Origin: Bifidobacterium sp.
Lineage (GTDB): Bacteria; Actinomycetota; Actinomycetes; Actinomycetales; Bifidobacteriaceae
Direction: 5' to 3'
Length of the DNA: 64,000 nucleotides
Assembly (NCBI GenBank): GCA_022649135.1
Contig: JALCNP010000004.1
Coordinates: 1-64,000, forward strand
A program made the translations under genes and the position numbers. This document shows, in pieces, positions 36,638 through 54,800 of the stretch. Under the pieces are notes generated by a model, which was not told the DNA's origin, did no database searches, and was given only the letters and a program-made list of their open reading frames with translations. How positions within the stretch are numbered: the first letter of the stretch is position 1; every line of letters starts with the position of its first letter.

Positions 36638-36828
36638 AAGACACGATTCCTCACTTTTTTGACTTGATTTTTAATCATTTCACCTATTTTTGCACCGATA
36701 ACTCAAGTATAAAGAATCATAGCCGTCATACGAGCGGTGACGCATCAGCCGCAAGCACTACGACAACGATGCGGGAACGCCGCCGGAGGATCGAAGAGGC
36801 GGCGATATCGCGCCCGAAGGAGAGCACT

Positions 36829-38661
36829 ATGCCCAGTAATGCCATGCCCAGTAGCACCATGTCTGCTGACGCCGTGCCCGGCAGCGTCATGCCGAGCGGA
36901 CCCGCACCCGGCAACCCCCCGTCCGGGGGCATTCCACGCCCCGAACACCCGAATCCCCAGTTCAGGCGCTCGACGTGGCGCAACCTCAACGGACCGTGGG
37001 AATTCGATCTGGATCTTTCCGTCAGCGGCACCGATCGACGGTGGTTCGAGAAGCACTCTTTCACCCGCACGATCACCGTGCCCTTCTGTCCGGAAAGCGC
37101 GCTGAGCACCATAGGGTTCACCGATTTCATACCCTGCTGCTGGTATCGCAGATCCTTCGACCTGAGCGACGAGGACAGGGCGGGGGATGTCATCGTCCAT
37201 TTCGGCGCGGTCGACTATGAGGCCCACGTGTACGTCAACGGCGTGCACGCAGGCGCGCACAAGGGAGGCTACACGCCGTTCAGCATCGACATTTCGGCAC
37301 TTGTCCATTCCGGGACGAACGAGATCGTCGTCAGCGCGACCGACGACACCCGCGGCCGCATGCAGCCCACCGGCAAACAGTGCGACCGGTATGACTCCTA
37401 CTCCTGCCTCTATACCCGCACCACAGGAATATGGCAGACCGTATGGCTCGAGTTTGTTCCGCAGGTGCGCATCGACCGGGTGCGCTACCGTACGGACATC
37501 CACGATGCGACGGTCAGCATGGAGGCGCAGCTGCAGGGAAGCGGCACGCTGAAGGTGTCCGCCTCGTTTAAGGGATCGCCCTGCGGCGAGGCCAGCGTCC
37601 ATAGCGACGGCGGACTGACCATGCTCACCCTGCCGCTTTGCGAGACCCACCTGTGGCAGCCCGGAGAGGGGAACATATACGACCTCACGCTCACATTCGG
37701 GCCCGACGTGGTCCACAGCTATGTGGGACTGCGGCAGATACGGCTGGACGGCTACCGTTTCCTCATCAACGGACGATCCGTGTTCCAGCGTCTGGTCCTC
37801 GACCAGGGGTTCTACCCCGAGGGGATATACACCGCACCCAGCGCGGCGGATATGGAGCGGGACATCCTTCTCTCGCAGGCTGCCGGCTTCAACGGCGCCC
37901 GACTGCATGAAAAGGCATTCGAGCCCCTGTACCTCTACTACTGCGACATCCACGGCTATCTCGCATGGGGTGAAATGGCCACGTGGGGGTTCGACATCAG
38001 CCAGCCCACCGGCTACGAGATCTTCATTCCCGAATGGATGGAGGCGATCCAACGCGATGTGAACCATCCGGCCATCATCGGATGGTGTCCGTTCAACGAG
38101 ACCTGGGACTTCGAAGGCCGACGGCAGCTGGACGGCCTGCTGCGCATGGCCTATCGCCTCACCAAGGCCTACGATCCGGAACGCCCCTGCATCGACACCA
38201 GCGGACACTACCATGTGGAGACCGACATCTATGACCTGCATGACTACGAACAGAGCGTCGAGAACTTTGCCGGACGCTACGAGGCATGGGGAAGGGGCGA
38301 CGCCCCGACACCCGAACTCTATCCCGACCGTCAGCGCTGCACCGGCGTCAAGCCGTTCTTCATCAGCGAATACGGCGGGATCAAGTGGGACCCCACCCGC
38401 ACCCAATCTTCGGATTCATGGGGTTATGGGCAGCAGGCGAACAGCGAGAAGGAATTCGTCGAACGCTACCGGGGACTGACCGAGGCGCTGCTGGGCAATC
38501 CGAGGATGTTCGGCTTCTGCTACACGCAGCTGTACGACGTCGAACAGGAGCAGAACGGGATCTACGACTACCATCGCAGACCCAAGGTCGACATCGAGGA
38601 AATACGACGAATCAATACGGCGATCGCCGCCATAGAGAGGGACGACGCCTCGGCCGCCTGA
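36829..38661 (+). CDS. Glycoside hydrolase family 2 protein (beta-galactosidase/glucuronidase-like)
   Basis: WRNLNGPWEFDLDLS...GVDY/ARVYVNG-like AVDYEAHVYVNGVHAG; VRRDVNHPAIIGWCPFNETWD acid/base region; FFISEYGGIKWDP. Confidence 0.9.
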   Translation: MPSNAMPSSTMSADAVPGSVMPSGPAPGNPPSGGIPRPEHPNPQFRRSTWRNLNGPWEFDLDLSVSGTDRRWFEKHSFTRTITVPFCPESALSTIGFTDFIPCCWYRRSFDLSDEDRAGDVIVHFGAVDYEAHVYVNGVHAGAHKGGYTPFSIDISALVHSGTNEIVVSATDDTRGRMQPTGKQCDRYDSYSCLYTRTTGIWQTVWLEFVPQVRIDRVRYRTDIHDATVSMEAQLQGSGTLKVSASFKGSPCGEASVHSDGGLTMLTLPLCETHLWQPGEGNIYDLTLTFGPDVVHSYVGLRQIRLDGYRFLINGRSVFQRLVLDQGFYPEGIYTAPSAADMERDILLSQAAGFNGARLHEKAFEPLYLYYCDIHGYLAWGEMATWGFDISQPTGYEIFIPEWMEAIQRDVNHPAIIGWCPFNETWDFEGRRQLDGLLRMAYRLTKAYDPERPCIDTSGHYHVETDIYDLHDYEQSVENFAGRYEAWGRGDAPTPELYPDRQRCTGVKPFFISEYGGIKWDPTRTQSSDSWGYGQQANSEKEFVERYRGLTEALLGNPRMFGFCYTQLYDVEQEQNGIYDYHRRPKVDIEEIRRINTAIAAIERDDASAA

Positions 38662-38712
38662 GCAGAACCGCCTCCCCAGCGGCGGCAGAACGATGGGTGC
38701 TGCAGCCGCCGG

Positions 38713-38742
38713 GGAGTGCACGGCGCAGGAGTGCACGGCGCC
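38713..38742. repeat. 15-bp tandem duplication GGAGTGCACGGCGC(A/C) x2
   Basis: Read directly downstream of the GH2 gene. Confidence 0.8.
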
Positions 38743-38841
38743 GGGCCGGATAACGTCGGACCGCACAATGGCGCATTACGAGCAGGATCACACAATGCTG
38801 TATCGCAGTGCCGAATCACACCAGAGAAGACAGGAGACATC

Positions 38842-39678
38842 ATGCATATCGGAATAGGCACAACCTTGCCCCACAACACCCCCGGGAAGTGGGCCGCGAC
38901 CCTGCAGTCATGGGGGTGCACCGCCGCCGTGTGCCCGATAGACCATACGGCACCGGCGGATCTGCGCAAGGACTATCTCGACGCCGCGTCGGCGGCAGGA
39001 CTGAGCATCACCGAGGTCGGGGTATGGAAGAACGTCATGTCGCCCGACGAGGACCACAGGCGCAAGGCCATCGAATACGCCGAGGCGCAGCTTGCGCTCG
39101 CCGATGAGATCGGCGCCCGCTGCTGCGTCAACATCGCCGGGAACGCCGGTCCAGGAGGATGGGACCAATACTCCCCGCAGAACTACAGCGGGGAGGCATA
39201 CGAGAGGATTGTGGACACCACCCGTGAGATCATCGATGCGGTGCGACCCGTGCGGACCCGTTACGCACTCGAATGCATGCCATGGATGCTTCCCGATTCG
39301 CCGGAAAGCTATCTGAAGCTTCTCAAGGATGTCGACAGGGACCATATGGGGGTTCATCTGGACTATACGAATATGATCAACGGCATGGGACGCTGGAGGA
39401 CGATGCGCAGCTTCATCGATTCCTGTTTCAGCATCTTGGGCGGGCGCATTCTCAGCATCCATGCCAAGGATGTAAGGCTCATGCCCGGGCTCCCGACCTC
39501 CATCGTGGAGACCGAGCCGGGAACCGGAGCCGTCGACTACGCACAGGTGCTTTCCCTGGCGGCCCGGTTCGCCCCCCGGGCGAGCGTGTTCACCGAGCAT
39601 CTTGACACGCCGAGGCAGTATCGCGATGCCGTTGCCTACCTGCTTGACACTGCCGGGCGCGTGGGGGCCGCGCGGTAA
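38842..39678 (+). CDS. Sugar phosphate isomerase/epimerase (xylose isomerase-like TIM barrel)
   Basis: MHIGIGTTLPHNTPGKWAATLQSWGCTAAVCPID...; GVHLDYTNMINGMGRW...ILSIHAKDVRL; AGGAG upstream of ATG 38842. Confidence 0.88.
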   Translation: MHIGIGTTLPHNTPGKWAATLQSWGCTAAVCPIDHTAPADLRKDYLDAASAAGLSITEVGVWKNVMSPDEDHRRKAIEYAEAQLALADEIGARCCVNIAGNAGPGGWDQYSPQNYSGEAYERIVDTTREIIDAVRPVRTRYALECMPWMLPDSPESYLKLLKDVDRDHMGVHLDYTNMINGMGRWRTMRSFIDSCFSILGGRILSIHAKDVRLMPGLPTSIVETEPGTGAVDYAQVLSLAARFAPRASVFTEHLDTPRQYRDAVAYLLDTAGRVGAAR

Positions 39679-39786: not shown

Positions 39787-40647
39787 TCACGCGTCCTGGG
39801 CGGCCGCGAACGTTTGCGCAAGCAGATTCTGCGTCTCGTCGGGGTGCAGGCGGGCGACACCCATGAAAAGGACGTCCACGATTACCAGTTGCGCCATTCT
39901 GCTGGGCATGGCGGCATAACGGAATCGTGTCTCCTTCGACACGGTGGTGATGACGCAGTCCGCCTCCTTCGTGATGGGGGAGTCCCGATAATTCGTCACC
40001 ACCACGGTGAACGCCCCGCTGTCATGTGCCGTCCGCAGGGCCCGGATCGTTTCCTTCGTCTGCCCGGAATGGGAGAAGCCCACCGCCACGGCACCCCGGG
40101 GCAGGGCTGCGGCGCTCATCAGTGCGAGATGGGGGTCGGACCATGCGTTGATCTGATATCCGATCCTGCTGAGCTTCTGTTGCAGATCCTGGGCGGAGAG
40201 GCCGCTTGAGGCCTGCCCGTACGTGTCGATACGAGAGGCGCCGTCCAGGGCGGTGACCGCCGTCTCAACGGCCCGGTAATCGAGCATGTTGATGGTGTCT
40301 TCGATGGTCTGGGCCTCTTCGAACGCCAGTTTCCGGTAGACGGATGTGGCCGAATCCGTCAGGTCGATGTCTCCGTTGGACACACCGAAATTGATTCGTT
40401 TTCCCTGATCCGATACGGCGGCCACCGTCAGAGCCTGGCGGAACCCCCGATATCCGTCAAAGCCGGCCTTTTTGCACAGGCGGATCACCGTGGCCAATGA
40501 GGTTCCACAGTCATTCGCAAGTTCGTTGATGGTGAGCTTGCAGGCCTGCAGCGGCTGTTCGAGCACGCGGTTCGCGACCCGGGTTTCGCTGGGGCGCAAA
40601 GTGGGCAGCAGCTGCTTGAGACGCATAAGAAGATCCTCCGCCATCAC
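39787..40647 (-). CDS. RpiR/MurR-family transcriptional regulator (SIS domain)
   Basis: LRPSETRVANRVLEQPLQACKLTINELANDCGTSLATVIRLCKKAGFDGYRGFRQAL; SIS domain GASRIDTYGQASSGLSAQDLQQKLSRIGY. Confidence 0.92.
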   Translation of the reverse strand: MMAEDLLMRLKQLLPTLRPSETRVANRVLEQPLQACKLTINELANDCGTSLATVIRLCKKAGFDGYRGFRQALTVAAVSDQGKRINFGVSNGDIDLTDSATSVYRKLAFEEAQTIEDTINMLDYRAVETAVTALDGASRIDTYGQASSGLSAQDLQQKLSRIGYQINAWSDPHLALMSAAALPRGAVAVGFSHSGQTKETIRALRTAHDSGAFTVVVTNYRDSPITKEADCVITTVSKETRFRYAAMPSRMAQLVIVDVLFMGVARLHPDETQNLLAQTFAAAQDA

Positions 40648-40668
40648 CGTCTCCCTTCCTCATCGTTG

Positions 40669-42216
40669 TCATCGGTTCCCGGGGATCCCGAGAAGAGCCA
40701 TGGCCGCCGCCCGCGCGCACGGCAAGGAATCGCCGTACGTGCGTATCCGATGATCGGCGACGTCATCCCCGGCGGGCCAGCCCGTCTGTATCACTATAGT
40801 TCGTGGGTTCGTCGCGAGAATCCGCCGCACGAAAAGCGATTCCCCGCTTCCGGGGAGCAGCTGTCCCGCAATGGCGACCACTCTGAGCGATCCATCGGCG
40901 ATGTGGCTTATAAGAGCGTCTTGCCCGGTGTCGTCTCCGCTGAAGCTCGGCGTCGACACGGATATCCCCGCTTCGGTGAGCGCGCGAAAGAAGCGATGCG
41001 CCCCGCGGCTCCCGGAATCCTCCCCGACGACCGGCGACTGCGATGCGCGGGCATCGACGAGCAGGACGGGTTCGCGTGGCTCCCCCAGCCGCACGTCGCC
41101 GCGAACCTCCATGGCGGCGCGGGCCAGACGGAGCTGTTCTCCATCGGCGGAGGAGACCGGCCGCGCATCGAGTCCGTGGCTTGCGCAGGAACGGCTCCAC
41201 GCCCTCAGCCGTGCGAGACGTTGTTGCGCCTGCTCTAGTGTGCGTATCGGAAGAGATCCCTCATCCAGAGCATCAAAGATCCCATCACGGACCTGTGCGA
41301 AACCGTCTTCATCCCGCCCCCGTTTATCGGCGGGATTGCCGATGCACAACAGGTCGTTGCCGGCGAGAAGCGCCTTCGCCCCCGCATGGCGCAGATCGGT
41401 CGTGCGGCTGACAGCTCCCATGTCCAGAGCGTCGCAGATCACCACGCCCTCGAACCCCAGCTCTTCCCTGAGAGGCTGCAGGGCTTGCGGGTTGAGCGTT
41501 GCCACGGGACCCGGGATGTAGGGAACGGGTATATGCGCGGCCATGACGCACTGCGCGCCGGCCCGTATGGCGGCGGCGAACGGAGGCAGGTGAATCGAGC
41601 GGGTCTGGCGGCGCGTGCGATGGACCACGGGGATGTCGTGGTGCGGATCGGCCACGACATCCCCGTATCCCGGGAAATGCTTGATGCAGCAGGCGACGCC
41701 CTCTTCCTGAATTCCGCGGACCATGGCGCTCGCATGTCTGCAGACGAGCAGTGGATCGGAGCCGAAGGAACGTACTGCGATGACGGGGTTGCGCGCGTCG
41801 CTGTTCACATCGACCACCGGCGCCAGATCGATGTCGATGCCTGCCTGAGCCACCAGCGAACCTATCCGCCGTCCCGAACGGTAGGTGGCTCCCGTGTCGT
41901 CGATTCTTCCAAGAACGGCATTTCCGGGCTCCTGCGATCCTTCCCCGGACTGCAGTCGCGTGACGATGCCTCCTTCCTCGTCGACGCCCAGCAGGGCATC
42001 CGGTGCCATGCCGTGGATGGTTCGCGACAGCAGACCGGGCTGCCCCGGATCGTCGGCATCGAAATTCTGCGAAAAATACAGGGCTCCGGCAAGTCCCTCC
42101 TCCAGTGCGAAGGCAAGCCAGGACGGTACGGTGGTGCCGTTGAACCCCGGCCACAGCACCTGATGAACCAATCGACGCAGGGCGGGATCCCGACGGCTGT
42201 TGACGGATGACATCAT
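40669..42216 (-). CDS. GH3 beta-N-acetylhexosaminidase (NagZ-like)
   Basis: LLGVDEEGGIVTRL; CCIKHFPGYGDVVADPHHDIPVV catalytic loop typical of GH3 NagZ. Confidence 0.92.
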   Translation of the reverse strand: MMSSVNSRRDPALRRLVHQVLWPGFNGTTVPSWLAFALEEGLAGALYFSQNFDADDPGQPGLLSRTIHGMAPDALLGVDEEGGIVTRLQSGEGSQEPGNAVLGRIDDTGATYRSGRRIGSLVAQAGIDIDLAPVVDVNSDARNPVIAVRSFGSDPLLVCRHASAMVRGIQEEGVACCIKHFPGYGDVVADPHHDIPVVHRTRRQTRSIHLPPFAAAIRAGAQCVMAAHIPVPYIPGPVATLNPQALQPLREELGFEGVVICDALDMGAVSRTTDLRHAGAKALLAGNDLLCIGNPADKRGRDEDGFAQVRDGIFDALDEGSLPIRTLEQAQQRLARLRAWSRSCASHGLDARPVSSADGEQLRLARAAMEVRGDVRLGEPREPVLLVDARASQSPVVGEDSGSRGAHRFFRALTEAGISVSTPSFSGDDTGQDALISHIADGSLRVVAIAGQLLPGSGESLFVRRILATNPRTIVIQTGWPAGDDVADHRIRTYGDSLPCARAAAMALLGIPGNR

Positions 42217-42861
42217 CTATACCTCCTTGTCGGTGCCGATGCACAGCTGCAAGGGGTTGTCGCGGGTTGTGGGCAGGGGGCGGAACCCGATGTGCTCATA
42301 GAATCGGCGTGCGCGGTGATTGCTTTCCCCCACGCCGAGCTGGACTCCGGTGACGCCCCTCATCCGCAATTGGGAGAGCAGTCTGCGGATGAGAAGCCGG
42401 CCGAGACCCCGTCCTTGGGCCATGGGAAGAAGGTCGATGTGCATATGCGCGGGGAAAAGGTCCTGATCGGGGCCCAGAAAACCCTCGGGATGGTAGCCCG
42501 TCCGTGTCAGTCTGTTTGCGGCGGTCCGGGGAGGTTCGACCAGAGGGTGCGCTGCGCGGAACCGGGGAAGCCAGTGCTCCCTGTACCATGCGACGAACGC
42601 TGCGGTGTCGCCGACTGCGACGATGTAGCCGCAGGGCCCGTGGGGGCCGTCCACCACGGTCGCAAGATCCGGTGCATACCGAACGTAGGGGGAAAGATAG
42701 ATGTCGGGAAGCAGTCCGCCGGGAATCCAATCGGTCGCATCCCCTCCCGATTTTCCGGTTTTCACGCACACGCTGCGAAGCGCGGGCTCGTCCTCGTCGC
42801 GGTAGCGTCGTATGACGTATCGACTTGTTTCATCGTGCCGCGTATCCGGCATTGCGATCAC
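42217..42861 (-). CDS. GNAT-family N-acetyltransferase
   Basis: HMHIDLLPMAQGRGLGRLLIRRLLSQLRMRGVTGVQLGVGESNHRARRFYEHIGFRPL. Confidence 0.9.
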   Translation of the reverse strand: MIAMPDTRHDETSRYVIRRYRDEDEPALRSVCVKTGKSGGDATDWIPGGLLPDIYLSPYVRYAPDLATVVDGPHGPCGYIVAVGDTAAFVAWYREHWLPRFRAAHPLVEPPRTAANRLTRTGYHPEGFLGPDQDLFPAHMHIDLLPMAQGRGLGRLLIRRLLSQLRMRGVTGVQLGVGESNHRARRFYEHIGFRPLPTTRDNPLQLCIGTDKEV

Positions 42862-43950
42862 CTTCCCGTGATGTCCGTCCTATAGGGGATTACCTTACGG
42901 CGCGTTGGATGCCAGCAGGCGACTCTGTGCCCGCCCGTGCCTGCATTGCGGAACGTGTGCGGGTGCGGGTCGAGGTTTGTGTTCGGATTCGGAGCGGTCG
43001 CGCATCCGCTTTCCGATATGCGGTCCAGCGACGGCCGCCGCTGTCGGCACTCGTGCGTGGCAAAGGGGCAGCGCGGGGCGAAAAGACAGCCGGCGTCATC
43101 GTTGCCCTCCTCAAGGATCCCTGTCGGAACCACCTGTTCCGCCGCCTTGTGCTCCAGTCCGCGCAGCAGGGGGATGGAGGACAGCAGAGCCTGTGTGTAG
43201 GGGTGTTCGGGGGCCTGGGAGATAACGCTTTCCGAGGGACCCTGCTCCACGACGGAGCCTCGGTACAGCACGGCGACCGTGCTGTTGTCGCCGATATACC
43301 GGGCAGATGCCAGATCGTGGGTGATGAACACGACGGATATGCCCAGGTCGTTGCGCAGCCTTCTCAGCAGTCCGAGAATCCCCAGTCGCAGGGAGACGTC
43401 GATCATGGACACGGCCTCGTCGGCGACAAGAACCTTCGGCTCCACCGCAAGCGCCCTGGCGATGACGATTCTCTGACGCATTCCGCCCGAAAGCTGATGG
43501 GGATATCGCGGCAGAACATAACCTGGATCCAGACCCACCAGGTCGAGGATGGCGGGTAGGTGCCGATCCACCCAATGAGAATCCTTGCCCGACTCCCGCG
43601 CATGCAGCCGCAGCACATCCATGAGGATCTCGTCAATGGTTCTCACCGGATTGAGCGCGGAGTAAGGATCCTGGTGAATCATCTGGATGCCGCGGAGGAA
43701 TTCCCTTCTCCGGCCGGCGTTCCACTTCGTGATGTCGGTGCCGTCACACAGTATCGTCCCGGATGTGGGCTGTTCGATTCCCGCGATGATTCGTCCAAGC
43801 GTGGACTTCCCGCATCCTGACTCTCCGATGATGGATATGGCCGAGCCGTCCGGGATGTCCAGATCCACACCGCGCAGAGCATGGACGGATTCCCCGCGCT
43901 TGCCGCCACGGACGCGGTAGGTTTTTTCTATGCCGACGAGTCTAATCATG
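42858..43950 (-). CDS. Oligopeptide-type ABC transporter ATP-binding protein (OppF/DppF type)
   Basis: GESGCGKSTLGRIIAGIEQPTSG; QLSGGMRQRIVIARAL; C-terminal CLFAPRCPFATHEC oligopeptide-ABC motif; start MIRLVGIEKTY at ~43950. Confidence 0.93.
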
Positions 43951-45111
43951 AGGGTGTCCTTGCACTGCGGGAGATGGTGGAATCCGGCGAAAACCCGTGC
44001 CACCGGCGGTGGAATCGTGCACGGTGGCGACCGCGGTGACCGCGGAGCCGTCTTCGGTACCAATGAAATGGCATGCCGCCAGACCCGAGGAGGAGCCGTG
44101 CTCCCTCATCGGCGGCGTCTGCTCCTCGCACCGGGCCGGATGGTCGCGCAGGAAGATCGGGCAGCGGTCCCTGAAGATGCAGCCTTTCCGCGCAATGGTG
44201 GTGAGTGTCGGCGGTCGGCCCGCGAGGGGCCGGGCCGCAGCGATGTCCCCGGTCAGTCGCGGCAGCGCCTGTATGAGACCGCGAGTGTAGGGGTGGGCGG
44301 GGTGCTGCAGTATCTCGACGGTGTCACCCACCTCGACCAGATGCCCGCCATAGAGAACCGCTATACGGTCTGCGATGTCCGCCACGACGCCGATGTCATG
44401 GGTCACCAGCAGTGTCGTGAGCCCCTGGGACCGGTGCACGCTTCGTATGATGTCGAGGATGTTCGCCTGCGTGATCATGTCGAGCGCTGTTGTCGGCTCG
44501 TCAAGCACGAGCACGTGGGGGCGCAGCACCAGGGCGAATGCGATCTCAACCCGTTGGCGCATTCCCCCGGAGAGCTGATGCTGATAGGATGTCAGGATTC
44601 TTTTCGCGGGCAGCCCCATGTGAGTGAGGATGTCGCTGAAGAAGTGCAGCAGCTCCTTCAGATCACCGACCTTGTGGGACCGGCCGAGATCCAGAACCTG
44701 CCTGCCTATTTTCTCCAGCGGGTTGAGTGAATTCTGGGCCGCCTGAAAAACGTACCCGATCTGAGCTCCCCGAATGGTGTTGAGTCGCTTCCGGTCGAAG
44801 GTGAGGACATCCCCTATCCCTTCGATGTCTATGGACCCTTCCGTGATGCGCCCGGGGGGCTGCACCGCGTTGACGGTGGCCATGGCGAGGGTGGATTTTC
44901 CCGACCCGGATTCGCCCACCAGGCCCGTGATGGTGCCTGGTTCGAGGGTGAGCGACACATGGTGGACGGCGGGAAGGAGAGTCTGGTTCACCGCATAGGC
45001 GACCGTGAGGTCGCGGATTTCGACGCCGGGCGCCGCGTCGGTGGCCGAGGGCGGCGTGGATGGCGCCTGCCGTCCGGTGCGGGGTGTGGTGGTCATGGGT
45101 TCGCCTTTCAT
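43942..45111 (-). CDS. Oligopeptide-type ABC transporter ATP-binding protein (OppD/DppD type)
   Basis: GESGSGKSTLAMATVNAV; HQLSGGMRQRVEIAFAL; CIFRDRCPIFLRDHPARC; start at 45111. Confidence 0.93.
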   Translation of the reverse strand: MKGEPMTTTPRTGRQAPSTPPSATDAAPGVEIRDLTVAYAVNQTLLPAVHHVSLTLEPGTITGLVGESGSGKSTLAMATVNAVQPPGRITEGSIDIEGIGDVLTFDRKRLNTIRGAQIGYVFQAAQNSLNPLEKIGRQVLDLGRSHKVGDLKELLHFFSDILTHMGLPAKRILTSYQHQLSGGMRQRVEIAFALVLRPHVLVLDEPTTALDMITQANILDIIRSVHRSQGLTTLLVTHDIGVVADIADRIAVLYGGHLVEVGDTVEILQHPAHPYTRGLIQALPRLTGDIAAARPLAGRPPTLTTIARKGCIFRDRCPIFLRDHPARCEEQTPPMREHGSSSGLAACHFIGTEDGSAVTAVATVHDSTAGGTGFRRIPPSPAVQGHPHD

Positions 45112-46004
45112 GAATTCTCCCTCAGGCGGGGGTTGAACACTTCGTCGAGGGCGTCGATGAGAAGCACCACCCCGAGGGTGAGCAGAAGTATGGCGATCAG
45201 TGGCGAAAGCAGATAGGACAGGCCGACTCCGGTGAGCGTGACCCCGTTGTTCACGGCAAGCTGGATCATCACGCCCCAATTGGATGAGGTGAACGGGAGA
45301 ACTCCCAGATAGAACAGCCCGACCTGGGAGTAGATGGAGTTCGTTATGCCCATGAGAAGATTCATGGCGACGAAAGGCGCCATATTCGGGAGCAGCTCCT
45401 TGAAGACGATATATCGGACCGGGAAGCCGAGCCCCCGGGCCGCCTCCACGAACCCGCGGCTTCGCAGCGACATGGTCTGGGCTCGGATCGCGCGCGCCAG
45501 ACCGCCCCACCCGGTGATTCCGAGCACGATCCCCATGGTCCAGGGGGAACCGAACTTCCAGACGATGGAGAGCACGAGAAGGAGGGGGAAGTTGGGTATG
45601 GTCAGTATGATGTCCGTGACCCGCATCAGCGCCGAATCGGTGAAGCCCTGACGGAAGCCCGCATAAAGGCCGATGGTCACACCGATGACCACGGTGATGA
45701 GGGAGGCTATCGCCGCCGAAAGAAGCACGTACTGTGTGCCTGTCATGAGAAGGGCCAGGACGTCCACTCCCTGAAAATCCGTTCCCAGGGGATGGCTGAG
45801 GCTGGGTGGCCCGAAAAGGTTGTTCGCGTCAACGGGAAGCGTCCCGCGGTACAGGAGTCTTCCGAAAACCGCAAAGAACGTGTAGATCACGACGATGACG
45901 GCCCCGAACATCCTGCCCGGCTTGTGTTTCAGCGATTTCCAGAGGATGCGGGGGAAGTTGTTGCGGCCTGTGTGGCGGTCGAATCGTGGCTTGTCGTCGA
46001 TCAT
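45108..46004 (-). CDS. Oligopeptide-type ABC transporter permease (DppC type)
   Basis: HPLGTDFQGVDVLALLMTGTQYVLLSAAIASLITVVIGVTIGLYAGF. Confidence 0.93.
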   Translation of the reverse strand: MIDDKPRFDRHTGRNNFPRILWKSLKHKPGRMFGAVIVVIYTFFAVFGRLLYRGTLPVDANNLFGPPSLSHPLGTDFQGVDVLALLMTGTQYVLLSAAIASLITVVIGVTIGLYAGFRQGFTDSALMRVTDIILTIPNFPLLLVLSIVWKFGSPWTMGIVLGITGWGGLARAIRAQTMSLRSRGFVEAARGLGFPVRYIVFKELLPNMAPFVAMNLLMGITNSIYSQVGLFYLGVLPFTSSNWGVMIQLAVNNGVTLTGVGLSYLLSPLIAILLLTLGVVLLIDALDEVFNPRLRENS

Positions 46005-47011
46005 ATTCTTTCTCCCCCTCTGCGCACGCGAGGATCAATGGCCGTGTACAGCAGGTCGGCCAGAAGATTCGCCACGATGACGGCCACGGTGATGAGCAGG
46101 AACGCGCCGTTCATGACGGGGTAGTCCCGCTGTCCCACGCTGCTGATGAGTAGCTGGCCCATTCCCGGGTAGTTGAATGCGTTCTCGATGAAAACCGATC
46201 CGCCGAACATGAATCCCAGGGACAGCGTAAGGACCGTGAACAGGGGGAGGACCGCATTGTGGGCGATGTAGGTGAAGATCCTGCGCCGCGACAGGCCCCT
46301 GACTTCCGCTGCCAGGATGAAATCGTCGCCCATGACGGAGACGACCGAGGATTTCATCGTCAGCAGGTAGCCGCCGAAGCTGGACAGGGCGAAGGCGGAT
46401 GCCGGGAGGACGGCGTGGGAGAGAAGCGATGCCACATAGGGCGCGTTGAATCCTGGTTCGAGGGTCCCGTCGACGGGACCGGTGGAGAAGAGCGGGAACT
46501 TGACCGTGAGGAACGTCACCAGGATCAGGGCCATCACATACTGGGGAATGCCATGCAGCACAGATCCGAGGATGGTCAGACCGCTGCCCAGACGGGTGTC
46601 GCGTCTGATGGCGGCGATGACACCCAGGACCACCCCCAGGGCGGCGCTGGTCAGCACCCCCGCGAGGACCAGGCCCACCGTCCATGAGACGGCGGAGCCC
46701 AGTTCCCTGCTCACGGGTATGCCTTCGGCGGTGATCGACGTTCCGAAATTCCCGTGAACCAGTTGGATGAGGTAGTCCCCGTACTGCTGGAGCAGGGAGC
46801 CGTTGGGCATGAAACCGTAGATGCTGGCCGTCAGCGCCCTGGCCTGCTGGGGGGTCTTCCCCTGCATGAGGAGGTTCTCGTAGGCGGTCTCCAAGGGGTC
46901 GCCCGGCATGAGCTTGATCAGGAAGAAGGTGAATGTGCACACCACCCAGATGGTGAGGAAGGCCCTCAGAAGGCTGGTTGCCAGATACCGCAGGTTCGCC
47001 ATCATGCGCAT
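46001..47011 (-). CDS. Oligopeptide-type ABC transporter permease (DppB type)
   Basis: LIKLMPGDPLETAYENL...; SVFIENAFNYPGMGQLLISSVGQRDYPVMNGAFLL. Confidence 0.93.
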   Translation of the reverse strand: MRMMANLRYLATSLLRAFLTIWVVCTFTFFLIKLMPGDPLETAYENLLMQGKTPQQARALTASIYGFMPNGSLLQQYGDYLIQLVHGNFGTSITAEGIPVSRELGSAVSWTVGLVLAGVLTSAALGVVLGVIAAIRRDTRLGSGLTILGSVLHGIPQYVMALILVTFLTVKFPLFSTGPVDGTLEPGFNAPYVASLLSHAVLPASAFALSSFGGYLLTMKSSVVSVMGDDFILAAEVRGLSRRRIFTYIAHNAVLPLFTVLTLSLGFMFGGSVFIENAFNYPGMGQLLISSVGQRDYPVMNGAFLLITVAVIVANLLADLLYTAIDPRVRRGGERI

Positions 47012-47041
47012 CGCCCGGCCCGCCGGCCGCGTCTGTCCGGG

Positions 47042-48853
47042 CTATTTCTTCGTGATGTAGCCATATTGCATCCAGACTCCAGGCTGGTTGTGCAGAAGCC
47101 AGCTGTCGTTCTTCGGGAAGTTGGAGAATCGTGACGTGTTGACGAACTGCAGGTTCTTGTAGTCCCAGATCTGGAATATCGGCAGCTGATCGTTGGTCAG
47201 TCCCGCCAGTTTCCTGACAGTGTCGGACTTCGTCGCCCCGGTGGTGGTCTGCAGTGTTGCTGCGAGCTCTCCGGGGTCGATGCTGCTCCCGTCGTACTGC
47301 TCGTGTTCCGGACTCGCCATCCAGTTGCCGTTCTTTCCCGCGGCCGAGTGGACGGCGCCGCTGCCGGATGCCGTCCATCCGTTGGATGTCCCGTAGACGC
47401 GCTGATAGGCGTTGTAGGCGTCGGGGCCCAAGGCCGCGAGCCAGAAGGCCACCGGGAATTTGCCCTGCGCCAGATCGGACAGGTATGTTGCGTAGTCCGC
47501 TGAGGTGTTGAGCTGGGAGGACACTCCGACCGCCGTCAGATCGCTGGTGATGCTTTTGCCCGCCGCCACCCAGTCGGAGAAGCCGTTGGCCACTTGTATG
47601 TTCACGGTGAGCGGCTTGCCGTCCGTCGTCCTCCATATGCCGTCGACCTTCTTCAGCCCGGCCTTCGAGAAGCATTCGGCAGCCTTGCTGGGGCTGTATG
47701 CGTAATCGTTCAGATGCGCCCCCTTGAGGTAAAGGTCGTTGACCTTCGAAACCATGCCGGTGGTCGTATCCGATGCGGTTCCACTGGTGCTTTCGCCGAT
47801 TTTCGTGGCTGTCGCGCGGTTGATCGCATAGGCGACGCCCCTGCGGACCCAGACGTTGTCGAAGGGCTTGACGTTTTGGTTGAAGGCAAGCGCCGCGCTG
47901 ACGAAGCTGACTCCCTCGACGGTGGAATTGCCGTGCACGGCAAGGATGCTTTTCAGCATGCTCGCCGATGTCGCGGTGTAGGGGGCCACGTCAAGTTGCC
48001 CGGATTTGAGGTAGGTCCAGATCTGCTGATTGCTGTTGTAGCTTTTCAGGACCACCTGCGTGGGGGCTATGCGGGAGGAGTCGAAGAAGTTCGGGTTCTT
48101 GGCGAGGATGGCCTCGCTGGGATTGACGCGTGTGAGGGAGAAGGGTCCGCAGGAGATGTCTTTTTTAGGTCCGAGGGACGTCATTTTTTTACCAAAGGCG
48201 GCGATGTCCGCGGATGCCTGTTTCTTCTGGGCTTCCGTCGCCGTGGCCGAGGTCTCTAGGGAGACCTCGTTCCAGAAGTTCTTGGGAATCTTGGCGTTCC
48301 AGAATGAGGAGGGCACCACTATCGTGGTCAGCACGTTCGAAAGGAAGGTACTGGCTTGGGCGTCCGTGTTCTGGGTGACCGATATGGTCGTGGCGCCCGC
48401 CGTCTTTGCTGTCATGGCGGAGGTGCCGTTGGCTATGGAGAGGGCCAGGGATGCCTTGACGTCGTCGGAGGTCACGGCCGCCCCGTTCGACCATGCGGCC
48501 TTGGGGTTGATGTGCACCGTCACCGTGTGCCCGTCCGCGCTGAGGTTCCAGCTTGTCGCGATGTTCGGGGCGTAGGCTGTCGGGTCGGAGATCGAATACT
48601 TTGACCAGGCGAGCTGTTCCTTGTTGTATCCGGTGAACATGTTCGCCACCTGGTTGTAGGGGTTGATGGGGGCATTGACGTTGATCGACTGGTTTTCGTC
48701 GATGGTGGTGAACGTCCGGGAGGATGCCCCGGCCGAGGCGGATCCGCCGCAGCCGGAAAGCAGCATCGCCGCCCCGACCATGGCGGCGACGACCGGTGAC
48801 TTTGCCAGATTGCGTGGATGTGGACCGCAGTGTTTCAGACTGTGCAGATGCAT
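47042..48853 (-). CDS. Family 5 extracellular solute-binding lipoprotein (Opp/Dpp type)
   Basis: Lipobox LLSGCGGSASAG; YSISDPTAYAPNIATSWNLSADGHTVTVHINPKAAWSNGAAVTSDDV; start MHLHSLKH at 48853. Confidence 0.92.
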   Translation of the reverse strand: MHLHSLKHCGPHPRNLAKSPVVAAMVGAAMLLSGCGGSASAGASSRTFTTIDENQSINVNAPINPYNQVANMFTGYNKEQLAWSKYSISDPTAYAPNIATSWNLSADGHTVTVHINPKAAWSNGAAVTSDDVKASLALSIANGTSAMTAKTAGATTISVTQNTDAQASTFLSNVLTTIVVPSSFWNAKIPKNFWNEVSLETSATATEAQKKQASADIAAFGKKMTSLGPKKDISCGPFSLTRVNPSEAILAKNPNFFDSSRIAPTQVVLKSYNSNQQIWTYLKSGQLDVAPYTATSASMLKSILAVHGNSTVEGVSFVSAALAFNQNVKPFDNVWVRRGVAYAINRATATKIGESTSGTASDTTTGMVSKVNDLYLKGAHLNDYAYSPSKAAECFSKAGLKKVDGIWRTTDGKPLTVNIQVANGFSDWVAAGKSITSDLTAVGVSSQLNTSADYATYLSDLAQGKFPVAFWLAALGPDAYNAYQRVYGTSNGWTASGSGAVHSAAGKNGNWMASPEHEQYDGSSIDPGELAATLQTTTGATKSDTVRKLAGLTNDQLPIFQIWDYKNLQFVNTSRFSNFPKNDSWLLHNQPGVWMQYGYITKK

Positions 48854-48929
48854 GATACCCTCCCCGGATGTGTGGTGTGCGGTGTTAGAAAGCACAGTAT
48901 TCCTGCATTTCGTGCGCTGTGTTAATTTA

Positions 48930-48955
48930 TTCCAAGAATATGTAACATCTTGGAA
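48930..48955. promoter_or_regulatory. Inverted repeat TTCCAAGA-N10-TCTTGGAA upstream of the solute-binding protein gene
   Basis: Perfect 8-bp arms in an AT-rich stretch about 80 bp upstream of the start codon at 48853. Confidence 0.55.
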
Positions 48956-49105
48956 ACTTTTATCATCCATGGGAGGAAAGAACCGGATGCCGCCCACGCG
49001 GGTGGGTGCGCGCGCATCCTGTTGATGGCGGCCATGGGGGATGCGTTGCGCGCGCGGGCAGGGAAGCCAGCCCGCATCTGAGGTGCGGGCATGGTATGCG
49101 GTGGG

Positions 49106-50281
49106 TCAGTCAGCCGTGAAGATGTCCGGAGGGTAGATTTCGGCGGGGATCCTGGTCTCCTCCACCGCGAGGGGTGTCACATCGTCGCCGGCGGCAATGA
49201 CGCGCCTGAGCCTATCGCTTCCCCACAGGAGGTCAATCGTGTGCCGTCCTCCCGGCGATGAGGAGGGAAGTATAGAGAAGTCCTTCGGGTAGAGCTCGCG
49301 CAGGCCCGACAGCACCGCCAACCCCGTGCGCACCGGTCGAAAGGCCGTCGGGTCGACAACGTGCAGATAGGCCCCATGGCATACGTCCCCCGCATGCTTG
49401 CTGAACGAAGGCATGAACGACACGGCTCTGAAGAGGGCCCCGGGCAGTGCGAGAGATGTCAGGTAGGCCGCCAGGCGATCGTCGGCCCAGGGCGCTCCGA
49501 ACATTTCGAAGGGATGGGTCGTTCCGCGTCCCTCAGAGCAGTTGGTCCCCTCCAGAAGCCCCATCCCGGGGTAGACGCGTGCGGTTCCTATGGTGGCCAG
49601 ATTGGGGGAGGGAGGAAGCCATGCCGTCGGTTCGCCCATGAAACCGCTGGGTGGGCAGAAGGCGTGGATCACCCGCAGGTCAGCCGTTCGCAGGCCGTCG
49701 CGTGCATCATGGCTGACCGTCAACCGTGCCATCTGCCCCAGTGTCAGACCGTGACGAATCGGTATCGGCACACGCCCGACGAAACTTTCGTACCGTTCGT
49801 CGAGCAGGGGACCCTCCACCGCCTCCCGACCCAGCGGATTGGGGCGGTCGAGCACGACAAAGGGCAGACCCAGCCTTCCTGCGGCTCGCAGGGCGTCGAT
49901 CATGGTCGAGGAGTAAGTCCAGAATCGGGTGCCGACATCCTGAAGGTCGAAGACGAGCATATCCGCATGCGTCTCCGCCACGGCTTCATCCATAAGGTCT
50001 CGCGAGAGAGCATAAAGGTCGATGATGGGAAGGCCCGTCCGGGGATCCGTGGTGGAGCGCTCGCCATGCCCCGCCTGAGCGGTGCCGTTCATTCCATGTT
50101 CCGGGCTGAACAGTGCCACCACCCTTATGCCCGATGCGATCAACGCATCCACTGCCCGGTGATAATCGCGAGTCACCGACGTGAAATTCGTGATCAGTCC
50201 GATGTGGCGGGCCCCGATGGCGCGTGCGCGCAGATCGTGGTCCAGGACGATGCGCTCAAGACCGGTTACCGGTGATTCCAT
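49106..50281 (-). CDS. DUF1343 family protein, NamZ-like exo-beta-N-acetylmuramidase
   Basis: GLITNFTSVTRDYHRAVDALIASGIRVVALFSPEHGMNGTAQAG; LVFDLQDVGTRFWTYSSTM; VLDRPNPLGREAVEGP are hallmarks of DUF1343/NamZ. Confidence 0.92.
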   Translation of the reverse strand: MESPVTGLERIVLDHDLRARAIGARHIGLITNFTSVTRDYHRAVDALIASGIRVVALFSPEHGMNGTAQAGHGERSTTDPRTGLPIIDLYALSRDLMDEAVAETHADMLVFDLQDVGTRFWTYSSTMIDALRAAGRLGLPFVVLDRPNPLGREAVEGPLLDERYESFVGRVPIPIRHGLTLGQMARLTVSHDARDGLRTADLRVIHAFCPPSGFMGEPTAWLPPSPNLATIGTARVYPGMGLLEGTNCSEGRGTTHPFEMFGAPWADDRLAAYLTSLALPGALFRAVSFMPSFSKHAGDVCHGAYLHVVDPTAFRPVRTGLAVLSGLRELYPKDFSILPSSSPGGRHTIDLLWGSDRLRRVIAAGDDVTPLAVEETRIPAEIYPPDIFTAD

Positions 50282-51480
50282 GGCCCGTTCCCTGTGCCCC
50301 GCCTCGTGGTGTTGTCCTTCTGGTCCACCCATGCGAAGGCGGCTTCGGCCACCGCCGGGCGCAGGGCCGTGACCAGGTTGCGGGAGCGTGAGGGGTGGAC
50401 GCGGTTGGTCAGCAGAACGATGGTGAGGGCTCTCCGGCGGTCGATCTGGAAGGACGTTCCCGTGAACCCGGTGTGCCCGCGCGATTCGCCCCCGTGGACG
50501 CCCATCCAATGGGTGGCGCCGATCTGCAGGCCGAGGCTGGCACCGTTAAGGGAGTTCTCCTCAAACGGGACGGCTCTTTTCACGATGCGCGCAAGTTCGT
50601 CGTCCCAGAGCAGATGCGACGCCGGTTCACAGGCCCCGATGCGCAGGGTCTCCGCGAAGTCGGCCACGGCCCGGGCCGTGGCGAACAGCCCGGCATTGGC
50701 GCATTCGCCGCCCATCGCCCATGAGGTTTCGTCGTGGACGTCACCCTGTATCATGCCTCGATGCAGTTCCGGCGCGTATTCCGTGCATGCTGTGAGTTTC
50801 GGATCGGGATGGAAGGTGACCTGGTCAAGCCCCAGCGGTTCGAGGGTGTATGCGCGCACCAGCTCGGGCCACTGCCGGCCTGTGACCCGCTCCGCCAGCA
50901 CCATCGCCGTGTTGAAGCTCACGTCGGAATACCTTCTGCGCTGTCCGGGCTCGGAGTCGAGGGGTGTGGAGAGGAGATCCTCCTCCAGTTCGTTTTTCAT
51001 GGAGGCGATGGGACTGGTCGTGAGCCGTTCGGGCCCGCCTGCGCGTAGGGTGGCGAGAAGGGGCGTGCGCCAGCCGTACCAGCTCGGCGGCAGCCCGGCG
51101 GTGTGGGTGAGCAGATGCCGCAGCGTGGCCTTTCTCTTCCCCGGTTCTGCCCATGGGGCAAGCGTCCTTCCGACGGGTTCGTCCAGGTCGAGGATCCCCT
51201 CGCGAACCATGGACAGCAGCGTGTATGCGGAGAACGTCTTGGTCAGCGATGCCAGATCGAACATGGTCGAGGGTGTGGCGTTGACCCGGTCATGCTCATC
51301 CAGCTGTGCGCCGTCGTTCCCGTACGTGGCCAGGACACCGGTGGTGAGGTCGACCAGGACCTCCCCGTGCTGGAGTATCAGGCATTGGGCGGCACTGAAC
51401 GCTCCCTCGGCACGCTGGGTCTCGATCATGGCCCGGACTGTCCCGGTCAGAGACGATTGAGGTTCGAATACGGTTGGCAT
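50266..51480 (-). CDS. Serine hydrolase, class C beta-lactamase/AmiE-like (start may be 51513)
   Basis: FDLASLTKTF (SxxK), YSDVSF (YxN-like), GHTGFTG (KTG-like); gene neighbourhood. Confidence 0.88.
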   Translation of the reverse strand: MPTVFEPQSSLTGTVRAMIETQRAEGAFSAAQCLILQHGEVLVDLTTGVLATYGNDGAQLDEHDRVNATPSTMFDLASLTKTFSAYTLLSMVREGILDLDEPVGRTLAPWAEPGKRKATLRHLLTHTAGLPPSWYGWRTPLLATLRAGGPERLTTSPIASMKNELEEDLLSTPLDSEPGQRRRYSDVSFNTAMVLAERVTGRQWPELVRAYTLEPLGLDQVTFHPDPKLTACTEYAPELHRGMIQGDVHDETSWAMGGECANAGLFATARAVADFAETLRIGACEPASHLLWDDELARIVKRAVPFEENSLNGASLGLQIGATHWMGVHGGESRGHTGFTGTSFQIDRRRALTIVLLTNRVHPSRSRNLVTALRPAVAEAAFAWVDQKDNTTRRGTGNGPWNHR

Positions 51481-51509
51481 GCCACCGCTCCTTTTCGCGC
51501 AATGTGTGG

Positions 51510-52550
51510 TCATAGATCCTGCTGTATCGCGCTCCATGCCCAGGAATCCTTCCCGAGTGAGAGCGCAGGGGATTCCGCGGAGGCAAGCGCCTGGTTTGCG
51601 GCAAGAAGGGCGGCTCCGTCCAGGGGGGTCCCTTCGGGTTCCGTAATCCGGGCGTCTCGGTGACGAGCACGCACCGCGGCGATGAACGCCGTGCGGATGG
51701 GGGCGCAGCGTGTCAGGATTCCTCCCGCATAGGAGATTCGGAGGGGAAGGCCCGCTACCCAGGCCGTGCATGCGGTGGCAGCGATTTCGGTTCCCGCGCG
51801 GCGAAGAAGCTTGCGGGCGGTGGAATCCTCGTCGGCGCAGGCGGTAACGAGGGGGACGAAGGATGCGAGGATTCGGGCGCGGTCCGCATGAGGGTAGATT
51901 TTCCCCGGCCAGGTGTCCGGCTCGCCGAAATGCCCTAAGGCCGCGTGAAGCAGCGCTCGGGACTGCTCCCCGGGTCTGTCCTCATAGGTGTTCAGCGCTA
52001 TGTGCAGGGCGTGTCTCCCGATCCAGGACCCTGATCCGCGGTCGCCCAGAAGATATCCCCATCCGTCGCTTCTGCGCCAGATTCGGCGGTAGTCGGTTCC
52101 CAGCGCGATAACCCCGGTTCCGGCGGCGACCACCACTCCCGGCCTTCCCGACAGGGCCCCGGCGTGTGCGGCGACCGAGTCCGGCACGAGCATCGCATGC
52201 CGCGCCCCAAGAATGAGGGCCGTGTCGGCGCACAGTCTCTCGGGGTTTGCGCACAGGGAGGCTATGCCCGCGCACCCCAGGCAGACGGTGTGGATCGATG
52301 TGGCCTGATTGCCGAACCGTGTTCGCAGCATCGCACGGATGTCGGTGAGAAGCTCCCTGATGTTCAGTCCTTGCGGGCCGCTGGTGATTCCCCGGGGCAG
52401 GCGCAGGTCCGGCCCCAGGGAACGCGACCGGGCGGTTCCGGCGCCGGTGGCGGGCTGTGCCGAGCCGAGCCGTATCCGACATCCCGAGCCTCCTATGTCG
52501 ATCGCGCATATGACGGCCGTCTGCCGCCGTGTTCCTTCGGTGCGTGTCAT
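51510..52550 (-). CDS. N-acetylglucosamine/MurNAc kinase-like (BadF/BadG/BcrA/BcrD ATPase family)
   Basis: AVICAIDIGGSGCRIRLGS; VVVAAGTGVIALGTD; GDRGSGSWIGRHALH. Confidence 0.88.
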   Translation of the reverse strand: MTRTEGTRRQTAVICAIDIGGSGCRIRLGSAQPATGAGTARSRSLGPDLRLPRGITSGPQGLNIRELLTDIRAMLRTRFGNQATSIHTVCLGCAGIASLCANPERLCADTALILGARHAMLVPDSVAAHAGALSGRPGVVVAAGTGVIALGTDYRRIWRRSDGWGYLLGDRGSGSWIGRHALHIALNTYEDRPGEQSRALLHAALGHFGEPDTWPGKIYPHADRARILASFVPLVTACADEDSTARKLLRRAGTEIAATACTAWVAGLPLRISYAGGILTRCAPIRTAFIAAVRARHRDARITEPEGTPLDGAALLAANQALASAESPALSLGKDSWAWSAIQQDL

Positions 52551-53530
52551 CGGCGGCCGTTGTCCGTTTTCTGCCGCGGACGGGTGCCGAGCGCTCGGGT
52601 GTCGCCGGCGTCTGCGTTGACGGCATAGGTGACCGACCACTGATGCTCGGCCAGACGGGCCCGAGCGGCATCGGCATCGATGGAGGCGAAGTGGCTGACC
52701 AGGGCCACGCGGAGGTCGCCGCTGGCCCTGAGCAGGGACGCGTCGGCCTCGGCCTCGTCGAGCCCCGTCGCCTCGCGCATGATTCGGCGTGCCCGGTCGC
52801 GCAGCTTGTCGTTGGTGGCGTTGAGGCACACCATGAGGTTCGACCACGTCTTGCCGCATTGAACCATCACCGCCGTCGAGAAACTGTTCAACGCCAGTTT
52901 TTCCGCCGTTCCCGCTTTCAGACGCGTCGAGCCGGTGATGAACTCCTCGCCGGTGTCGAGCACGACTGTCAGGTCGGCGTCTCGTGAGCATGGTGGATGG
53001 GGATTGCAGCATATCAGTGCTGTTGCGGCGGACTTGCCTCGTGCCGATTGCAGGGCCGCCGCCACGTACGGCGTGGCCCCCGATGCCGTGATGCCGATGA
53101 CGAGATCCCCCTTCTCGACGGCGTCCTCGTCGTCGGGGCTGAGGGTCGTGGCGTCTTCGGCGTTCTCCATCGCATTGGTCAGGGCGTCCATGCCTCCGGC
53201 GATGTGGCCGATGACGGTGCCCGGTGCCGTGTTGAAGGTCGGGTACAGCTCGGCGGCGTCCAGCACGCCGAGGCGGCCCGATGTTCCTGCGCCGAAGTAG
53301 TGGATGTGGTGGCCGTTCCTCACCGTCTGCGTTCCCATCCGCACCAATTCCGCGAGGTCTGTGATCGCCTTGTGCACGGCATGCACCGCGCGTAGGTCCT
53401 GCCGGTTCATGGCGCGGAGCATGGTTTCCGTGTCCATGTCGTCAAGTCCCATCGATTCGGGCAGTCGTCTTTCCGTGGGCGGGAGGGGGGCTGGCGTCCC
53501 ATCCCGTTGCGTTGTGGTTTCCATTGGCAC
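52547..53530 (-). CDS. murQ: N-acetylmuramic acid 6-phosphate etherase
   Basis: YFGAGTSGRLGVLDAAELYPTF; HIAGGMDALTNAMENAED; ITASGATPYVAAALQSARGKSAATALI; LMVCLNATNDKLRDRARRI. Confidence 0.95.
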   Translation of the reverse strand: MPMETTTQRDGTPAPLPPTERRLPESMGLDDMDTETMLRAMNRQDLRAVHAVHKAITDLAELVRMGTQTVRNGHHIHYFGAGTSGRLGVLDAAELYPTFNTAPGTVIGHIAGGMDALTNAMENAEDATTLSPDDEDAVEKGDLVIGITASGATPYVAAALQSARGKSAATALICCNPHPPCSRDADLTVVLDTGEEFITGSTRLKAGTAEKLALNSFSTAVMVQCGKTWSNLMVCLNATNDKLRDRARRIMREATGLDEAEADASLLRASGDLRVALVSHFASIDADAARARLAEHQWSVTYAVNADAGDTRALGTRPRQKTDNGRR

Positions 53531-53883
53531 GCACCTTTGTTGTCGGTCATACGCATTATAGAGGAAAATAAATTACAACATTATATATGAATGTGAAAGT
53601 TATTTACAAATCACGACTTAGGTGCCAGTGCTGACGTTCGGGGAAAGGAGTGTTCGCTATGCGCGCGGACGATGCCTACCGCATAGGGCGTTGACCATCG
53701 GTGTCGGCGTAATCCGCCTGCGGCGAATGTAATCCCCGTCCGGGGGCAAAGCAGCGCGTTGTGTTGAGTATCATCAGGATTCCTGATCGTCGGCACGGCG
53801 ACTTTTCCGCGCCTGGTAATGACATTGCTCTAGAATGGGTCACTTCATGAGAGACATCACGGTGATCGAAATGGGGAGCGGCC

Positions 53884-54800
53884 ATGAGCACTGCAGCCAC
53901 CGAGCTATGGATTAAGATGAGCGAATTCCTTCAGCAGGGGGATTGCGAGCTGGTTCGCGACCTTCAGGAGCGCTGCTCCGGTGAGGACCACGTCACCCTC
54001 AAGCTCGAACTCGACTACAGGCGCAGCGACGCCGAGCAGCGAGCGAACACGATCGACATCCACGCCATCAATGAATTCCTGTGTTTCCGTGGCGCGCAAC
54101 TGGTGGCGTATGTTGGCATATCCGCCTTCGGGGGCGAATCCGAACCGTTCGAGGTCACCGGGATGGTGCATCCGGATTATCGCCGGCATGGGATTTTCAC
54201 GCGGCTTCTCGGTCTGGCTCGTGAAGAGTGCAGGCGGAGAAAGCCGAACGGCATTCTTCTCTTGTGCGACAGGGAATCCGCTGCCGGCCATGCGTTGATG
54301 GAAAGGGTCGGCGCCGCGTATGGCTTCTCCGAATACGAGATGTATCTCAACGGCGGTTCTGCTGAGGGCGGCGCACGGCGGCTGTGCGACGTCGGCCTCG
54401 AAAGGCCACCAATGAGGATGCCCGCGAGGTGGCCCGTCAGGATGCGATGTATTGCGGCCATGATCCGCAGGAGACCGATGAGGGGATTCCACTTCCCGAA
54501 GATGAGGAAAAAAGAGGCATGACCATATATCTTGCACAGGTGGACAGCCGAATCGTCGGAAAGGTCAATCTGCAGTTGGTGAACGGCCTTGGGGGAATCT
54601 ACGGGCTGGGTGTGCTGCCGGAGCATCGCGGCAAGGGACTGGGAAGGGCGATTCTGGTGGAGGCCATAGAAAAGCTCCAGGCCGCAGGGGCGGCCCGAAT
54701 CATGCTTCAGGTTGAAGCGGGGAATGCAACGGCCCTCAACCTCTACACATCGTGCGGGTTCCGCGCAACGTCGGTGATGGACTATTGGGCGGTGGAATGA
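53884..54800 (+). pseudogene. Two-domain GNAT acetyltransferase interrupted by a frameshift (N half 53884-~54395 frame 1, C half ~54395-54800 frame 3)
   Basis: N half: VTGMVHPDYRRHGIFTRLLGLAREECRRR; C half: KATNEDAREVARQDAMYCG...GIYGLGVLPEHRGKGLGRAILVEAIEKL. Frame change is consistent with a 1-nt deletion near 54385-54402. Confidence 0.75.

Follow-up and report, generated by a model that had tools for sequence, protein, structure and literature searches.

A candidate operon for muropeptide salvage through an Opp-type ABC importer in Bifidobacterium

How might a bacterium whose MurNAc salvage genes include no MurNAc phosphotransferase system (PTS) take up cell-wall fragments, and where would it digest them? 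The question is raised by twelve co-directional genes on the minus strand, from murQ (first) to a MurR/RpiR regulator (last), at 39787–53524 of a 64,000-nucleotide stretch of Bifidobacterium sp. DNA (hereafter the window). In the Bacillus subtilis ybb cluster (murQ-murR-murP-amiE-nagZ-namZ), MurNAc is taken up by the MurP PTS, and AmiE and NagZ are extracellular (PMC5061867). The window cluster shares MurQ, MurR, a PF00144 serine hydrolase, GH3 NagZ, and NamZ with the ybb cluster, but its importer is an Opp-type ABC system accompanied by a kinase, and it has neither a MurP PTS nor, as judged by a hydropathy heuristic rather than SignalP, secreted NagZ, AmiE, or NamZ. The twelve genes probably constitute a MurNAc/muropeptide salvage operon, in which Opp-type import is followed by cytoplasmic digestion, phosphorylation by the kinase, and MurQ.

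Gene content, layout, and distribution of the cluster

A preliminary description of this DNA had listed the twelve genes in this order on a single strand, mostly overlapping or closely spaced, and it is borne out on each point. All twelve genes are present on the minus strand and have a Pfam assignment (12/12), with NCBIfam in agreement for those scanned (Table 1). MurQ, NamZ, SBP_bac_5, the ABC components, GH3, and RpiR are unambiguous by Pfam or NCBIfam, and most motifs of the cluster proteins are present. Most neighboring genes overlap or abut, including 4-base ATGA overlaps at the murQ/kinase, kinase/serine hydrolase, and OppC/ATPase junctions, and the sole intergenic gap longer than 100 bases is the 252 bases from NamZ to the solute-binding protein (SBP) gene. 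A consensus scan placed a weak promoter-like site inside this gap as well as the candidate ahead of murQ, where TTGTAA-18-TATAAT overlaps one of the two TGTAAWTWWYTTTCM repeats. A third copy of TGTAAWTWWYTTTCM lies ahead of murQ in a congener (L038:6043), and the repeat is only a lead for a MurR operator because the pattern was written after the copies had been seen.

Table 1. Features of the cluster and its upstream region (window coordinates, with refined gene starts)
Feature	Position	Strand	Evidence
murQ, MurNAc-6-phosphate etherase	52547..53524	-	NF003915 342.5 bits vs cut-off 168; GKRP_SIS_N + SIS
BadF/BcrA-type sugar kinase, MurK/NagK-like	51510..52550	-	PF01869 53 bits; 8zo3 E 3e-14; DIGGS, Asp124
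Serine hydrolase, PF00144/PBP4B/AmiE kind, without signal peptide	50266..51513	-	PF00144 176 bits; SLTK
NamZ, exo-beta-N-acetylmuramidase (DUF1343), without signal peptide	49106..50281	-	NamZ_N 204 bits, NamZ_C 148 bits
Family-5 solute-binding lipoprotein, proposed muropeptide receptor	47042..48853	-	SBP_bac_5 158 bits; lipobox LSGC; SBP clade
OppB-type permease	46001..47011	-	BPD_transp_1 116 bits
OppC-type permease	45108..46004	-	BPD_transp_1 97 bits
OppD-type ATPase	43942..45111	-	ABC_tran + oligo_HPY; Walker A GESGSGKS
OppF-type ATPase	42858..43949	-	ABC_tran + oligo_HPY; Walker A GESGCGKS
GNAT acetyltransferase, proposed glucosaminide N-acetyltransferase	42217..42861	-	4bmh E 9e-36; 3zj0 E 5e-31
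GH3 NagZ-like beta-N-acetylglucosaminidase, without signal peptide	40669..42216	-	PF00933 206 bits; 6k5j E 1e-51; 3bmx E 3e-45
MurR/RpiR-family regulator	39787..40644	-	HTH_6 PF01418 + SIS PF01380
Candidate promoter-like TTGTAA-18-TATAAT upstream of murQ	53580..53609	-	consensus scan
Two TGTAAWTWWYTTTCM copies, 31 bases apart, candidate MurR operator	53563..53608	-	pattern defined after copies seen

The arrangement is not unique to the window genome. The congener G093 (L038) keeps the gene order, with 66% identity in MurQ and 74% in the SBP. The cluster is nevertheless rare, found in two of 112 genomes of the genus, and NamZ was detected only in the window genome and G093 among 189 genomes of the family. 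Matches to murQ occur in four of the 112 genomes, two of them diverged or broken (L035 in G060; L036/L037 in G108, where the copy lies in two pieces in different frames). Both cluster-bearing genomes contain an XFP phosphoketolase, as would be expected of Bifidobacteriaceae. Chance clustering of the twelve genes was considered and rejected, given the order kept in G093 and the linkage in 19 SBP orthologues.

Several other genes flank the operon in the window. A GH2-family glycosidase and a xylose-isomerase-like TIM-barrel gene (36664–39678, plus strand) adjoin its 3' end, near which an AraC regulator is also found (35735–36637), and two more GNAT genes lie just past murQ (53884–54800, plus strand).

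The binding protein and the Opp-type importer

The importer has the composition of an Opp-type ABC system, with an SBP_bac_5 lipoprotein, two BPD_transp_1 permeases, and two ABC_tran + oligo_HPY ATPases, both of which contain Walker A and LSGG. A search of 346 genomes of the class for SBP orthologues returned 19 places in other genomes at 407–535 bits, the next best scoring 87 bits. Within 20 kb around each SBP, OppBCDF adjoins the SBP gene in all 19 orthologue loci, 15 loci contain MurQ, and the remaining four contain a NagZ-like gene. Among 20 control loci of weaker family-5 SBPs, one of them in the window genome, MurQ was found in a single locus. The corresponding Fisher p-values, 2e-6 for MurQ and 3e-10 for MurQ or NagZ, are too small because the genomes compared are related to one another and so not independent. 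In some relatives, the kinase, GNAT, or NamZ is missing from the 20 kb. A quick tree grouped the window SBP with 22 others into a clade (23 rows, support 100). By its sequence and neighborhood, the cluster SBP belongs to a discrete actinobacterial clade of SBPs linked to peptidoglycan salvage, which is present, for example, in Nonomuraea.

NamZ is also paired with Opp in other Actinomycetota, in Chloroflexota, and in Lachnospiraceae, and it lies beside Opp genes in an Anaerolineae MAG, a Thermoflexales MAG, and a Lachnospiraceae MAG with NagZ and a kinase (L094, L096, L128). In other genomes of the order (L041–L054), the SBPs of the NamZ-Opp clusters form a separate clade in the quick tree. 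The separate SBP clades, together with the distant NamZ-Opp pairings, suggest that Opp importers may have been recruited to NamZ clusters more than once, with uncertainty arising from the long deep branches of the SBP tree. Several of the L041–L054 loci contain a long open frame that seemingly joins a permease and an ATPase.

Hydrolases, kinase, and the site of digestion

NamZ contains the conserved motifs PEHG and SEGRGTT alongside the NamZ_N and NamZ_C domains, in keeping with an exo-beta-N-acetylmuramidase, and the NagZ Asp-His loop KHFPGYGDVVADPHH and nucleophile motif ICDALDM were both evident when NagZ was aligned with B. subtilis YbbD (3bmx). The serine hydrolase is divergent from characterised members, its best NCBIfam match, PBP4B, reaching 94.5 bits against a curated cut-off of 385. 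None of the three has a hydrophobic h-region in its first 45 residues, the MurQ and GNAT N-termini likewise have no strongly hydrophobic segment, and the SBP N-terminus has a hydrophobic segment with the lipobox, the mature SBP being predicted to start at Cys35. Signal-like segments were called by a heuristic, a 13-residue hydropathy window with a threshold of 2.0, and not by SignalP.

With this heuristic, loci with an Opp-type OppB (Opp-linked) were compared with the other clustered loci (PTS or other). Signal-like segments were found in 1/28 NamZ, 0/20 NagZ, and 0/19 serine hydrolases of Opp-linked loci vs 17/35, 14/32, and 10/17, respectively, in the other clustered loci, a contrast that is likely understated since many Tat-like signals of the non-Opp group fall below the threshold. 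The lone Opp-linked NamZ exception (L175) probably has its start set too far upstream. The contrast is visible even within one genus, Nonomuraea: the enzymes of N. montanisoli (L077), which has Opp, show no signals, whereas signal-like segments are present in N. maritima (L095) and N. aridisoli (L101), whose loci lack Opp. Hydrolases that are unsignalled in Opp-linked loci and often signalled elsewhere indicate that cell-wall fragments appear to be digested inside the cell where the importer is of Opp type.

NamZ and NagZ of B. subtilis act on peptide-free or disaccharide ends, and the serine hydrolase would accordingly remove the peptide before or between the glycosidic steps. In G093, the kinase (residues 84–399) and the serine hydrolase (474–848) lie in one 850-codon open frame (L038:6854–9406), which is either a fusion or a stop missed through sequence error.

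MurQ scores above its NCBIfam cut-off, as expected for MurQ-dependent MurNAc catabolism. The kinase is a member of the BcrAD_BadFG family with the fold and motifs of the MurK type (DIGGS, Asp124). Its closest solved relative, the MurNAc/GlcNAc kinase 8zo3, is a weak match, and it scores well under the NCBIfam equivalog cut-off NagK_SO3507, which places it as divergent from characterised members. The Pfam scan of the cluster genes detected no EIIC inside the operon, and no MurP-type PTS was found in the genome, where the sole EIIC match is of the beta-glucoside IIABC type (452 bits) and reaches 114 bits against the MurP model (cut-off 516). No AnmK was found in the genome either; neither absence is absolute, since the assembly is 95.7% complete. 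Two Glucosamine_iso proteins are present. Given the lack of a MurP-type PTS and of AnmK, the cluster kinase is the likely source of MurNAc-6P. These results support the interpretation offered in the preliminary description. It had remarked on missing signal peptides in NamZ, NagZ, and the serine hydrolase, which have no h-region and are likewise unsignalled in Opp-linked relatives. Its reading of an Opp importer plus a kinase in place of a PTS fits an SBP clade tied to MurQ or NagZ (19/19 vs 1/20 controls) and a genome with only a beta-glucoside-type EIIABC and without AnmK.

The GNAT was included in that description's gene list without interpretation. Besides its nearest solved relatives, 4bmh and 3zj0, it matches the HAT domains of O-GlcNAcases more weakly (E 2e-9 and weaker). 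Its relatives include Streptomyces sviceus SsAT and the O-GlcNAcase HAT domain (PMC3919268). According to PMC4680927, which cites Reith and Mayer (2011), bacterial glucosamine N-acetyltransferases act on peptidoglycan fragments ahead of GlcNAcase cleavage, acetylating GlcN at the non-reducing ends. The cluster GNAT may similarly re-acetylate glucosamine before cleavage by NagZ. In a related locus, the gene between NamZ and the SBP (L046:11432–12412) encodes 326 residues that include two GNAT stretches; the window has no such gene at this position.

Proposed pathway, alternatives, and known systems

The substrates, step order, and regulation of the following pathway are inferred from the gene families. 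The lipoprotein SBP would capture peptidoglycan fragments (GlcNAc-MurNAc, MurNAc-GlcNAc, or peptide-bearing forms), which OppBCDF would import. In the cytoplasm, the serine hydrolase would strip the peptide from MurNAc, the GNAT would re-acetylate terminal glucosamine, and NagZ and NamZ, acting at non-reducing ends, would liberate GlcNAc and MurNAc. MurNAc-6P, perhaps also GlcNAc-6P, would then be formed by the BadF kinase, and MurQ would convert MurNAc-6P to GlcNAc-6P and D-lactate, the GlcNAc-6P entering NagA/NagB. MurR may repress the operon until MurNAc-6P accumulates.

The main rival concerns the cargo, because chitin-oligosaccharide receptors and OppA are about equally good matches to the SBP (1zty, E 6e-13; 4gl8, E 4e-13). 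SBP_bac_5 includes receptors of chitin oligosaccharides and other sugars, and glycosidic ends are the target of both NamZ and NagZ; the SBP could then be a sugar receptor, the cargo mainly peptide-free amino sugars (MurNAc-GlcNAc or GlcNAc-MurNAc disaccharides, free MurNAc), and peptide removal marginal. This reading is rather unlikely, however, as the operon holds an unsignalled PF00144 hydrolase of the PBP4B/AmiE kind, in one frame with the kinase in G093, which suggests peptide-bearing substrates.

The importer could also be a general oligopeptide importer present in the operon by happenstance, with MurNAc entering via an unlinked route, and the permeases and ATPases do match general Opp/Dpp/Nik models, none above its cut-off. 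The linkage of the SBP clade to MurQ and NagZ (19/19 orthologues vs 1/20 controls), the gene order kept in G093, and a genome without MurP nevertheless render such a coincidence highly improbable. Hardly any credence is given to a cluster for another N-acetylhexosamine conjugate, such as host- or chitin-derived sugars, with MurQ incidental: relatives of the kinase and the GNAT act on GlcNAc or GlcN, and chito-oligosaccharides can be GH3 substrates, but MurQ and NamZ are muramic-acid-specific families that recur with the cluster SBP clade.

The preferred reading, uptake of muropeptides by an Opp-type importer, has partial precedents. Muropeptides are carried by YejBEF-YepA of Agrobacterium tumefaciens, a peptide-type ABC importer (PMC9790009). 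The window system resembles it in combining such an importer with a dedicated SBP, the muropeptide cargo here being proposed; it differs in that YepA is an alphaproteobacterial SBP, and the MurNAc obtained is processed by AnmK/MupP/AmgK/MurU, not by a kinase and MurQ. In Clostridium acetobutylicum, a nagZ + opp locus presumably lies beside the MurK and glucosaminide N-acetyltransferase genes; if so, this layout has been seen before. C. acetobutylicum MurK is a MurNAc/GlcNAc kinase (cited in PMC10465942), and this species recovers peptidoglycan sugars with such a kinase and a GNAT, as might apply to the window (Reith and Mayer 2011, cited in PMC4680927; PMC10465942). The window kinase itself is only weakly similar to 8zo3 (E 3e-14). 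MurT of Tannerella forsythia is not known to be an Opp-type ABC importer. The T. forsythia MurT-MurK-MurQ route is similar in that uptake occurs without phosphorylation and is followed by MurK and MurQ, with free MurNAc as the substrate (PMC10465942).

The enzymes of the cluster and muropeptide import by an ABC system, as in YejBEF-YepA, are of known kinds; no paper describing the cluster SBP clade was found in the open-access literature. The balance tips slightly towards a broader proposal, namely that the SBP clade and OppBCDF form a dedicated actinobacterial muropeptide importer, that Opp was paired with NamZ more than once, and that the digestion site follows the transporter type. MurP is absent from Streptomyces coelicolor, which has MurQ (PMC5061867), and from the mycobacteria tested in PMC13041923, and the SBP clade offers a concrete, testable candidate for muramic acid uptake in actinobacteria without MurP. 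If the proposal is true, peptide-bearing or disaccharide wall fragments would be taken in whole, and the amount of extracellular muropeptide left for neighbors or the host to sense would also be affected.

Other uptake genes accompany these enzymes elsewhere. The Bacillus-type loci L088 and L115 (MurQ-MurR-serine hydrolase-NagZ-NamZ) encode an EIIBC scoring 320–334 bits with the MurP model. Three Bacillaceae loci (L133, L099, and L075) contain MurQ, a BadF-type kinase, and apparent CUT1-type sugar ABC genes, which were confirmed by Pfam in L133 only (SBP_bac_1/8 + BPD_transp_1), and may represent a third uptake solution. In L075, NamZ carries a signal-like segment, and that of the serine hydrolase falls just under the threshold.
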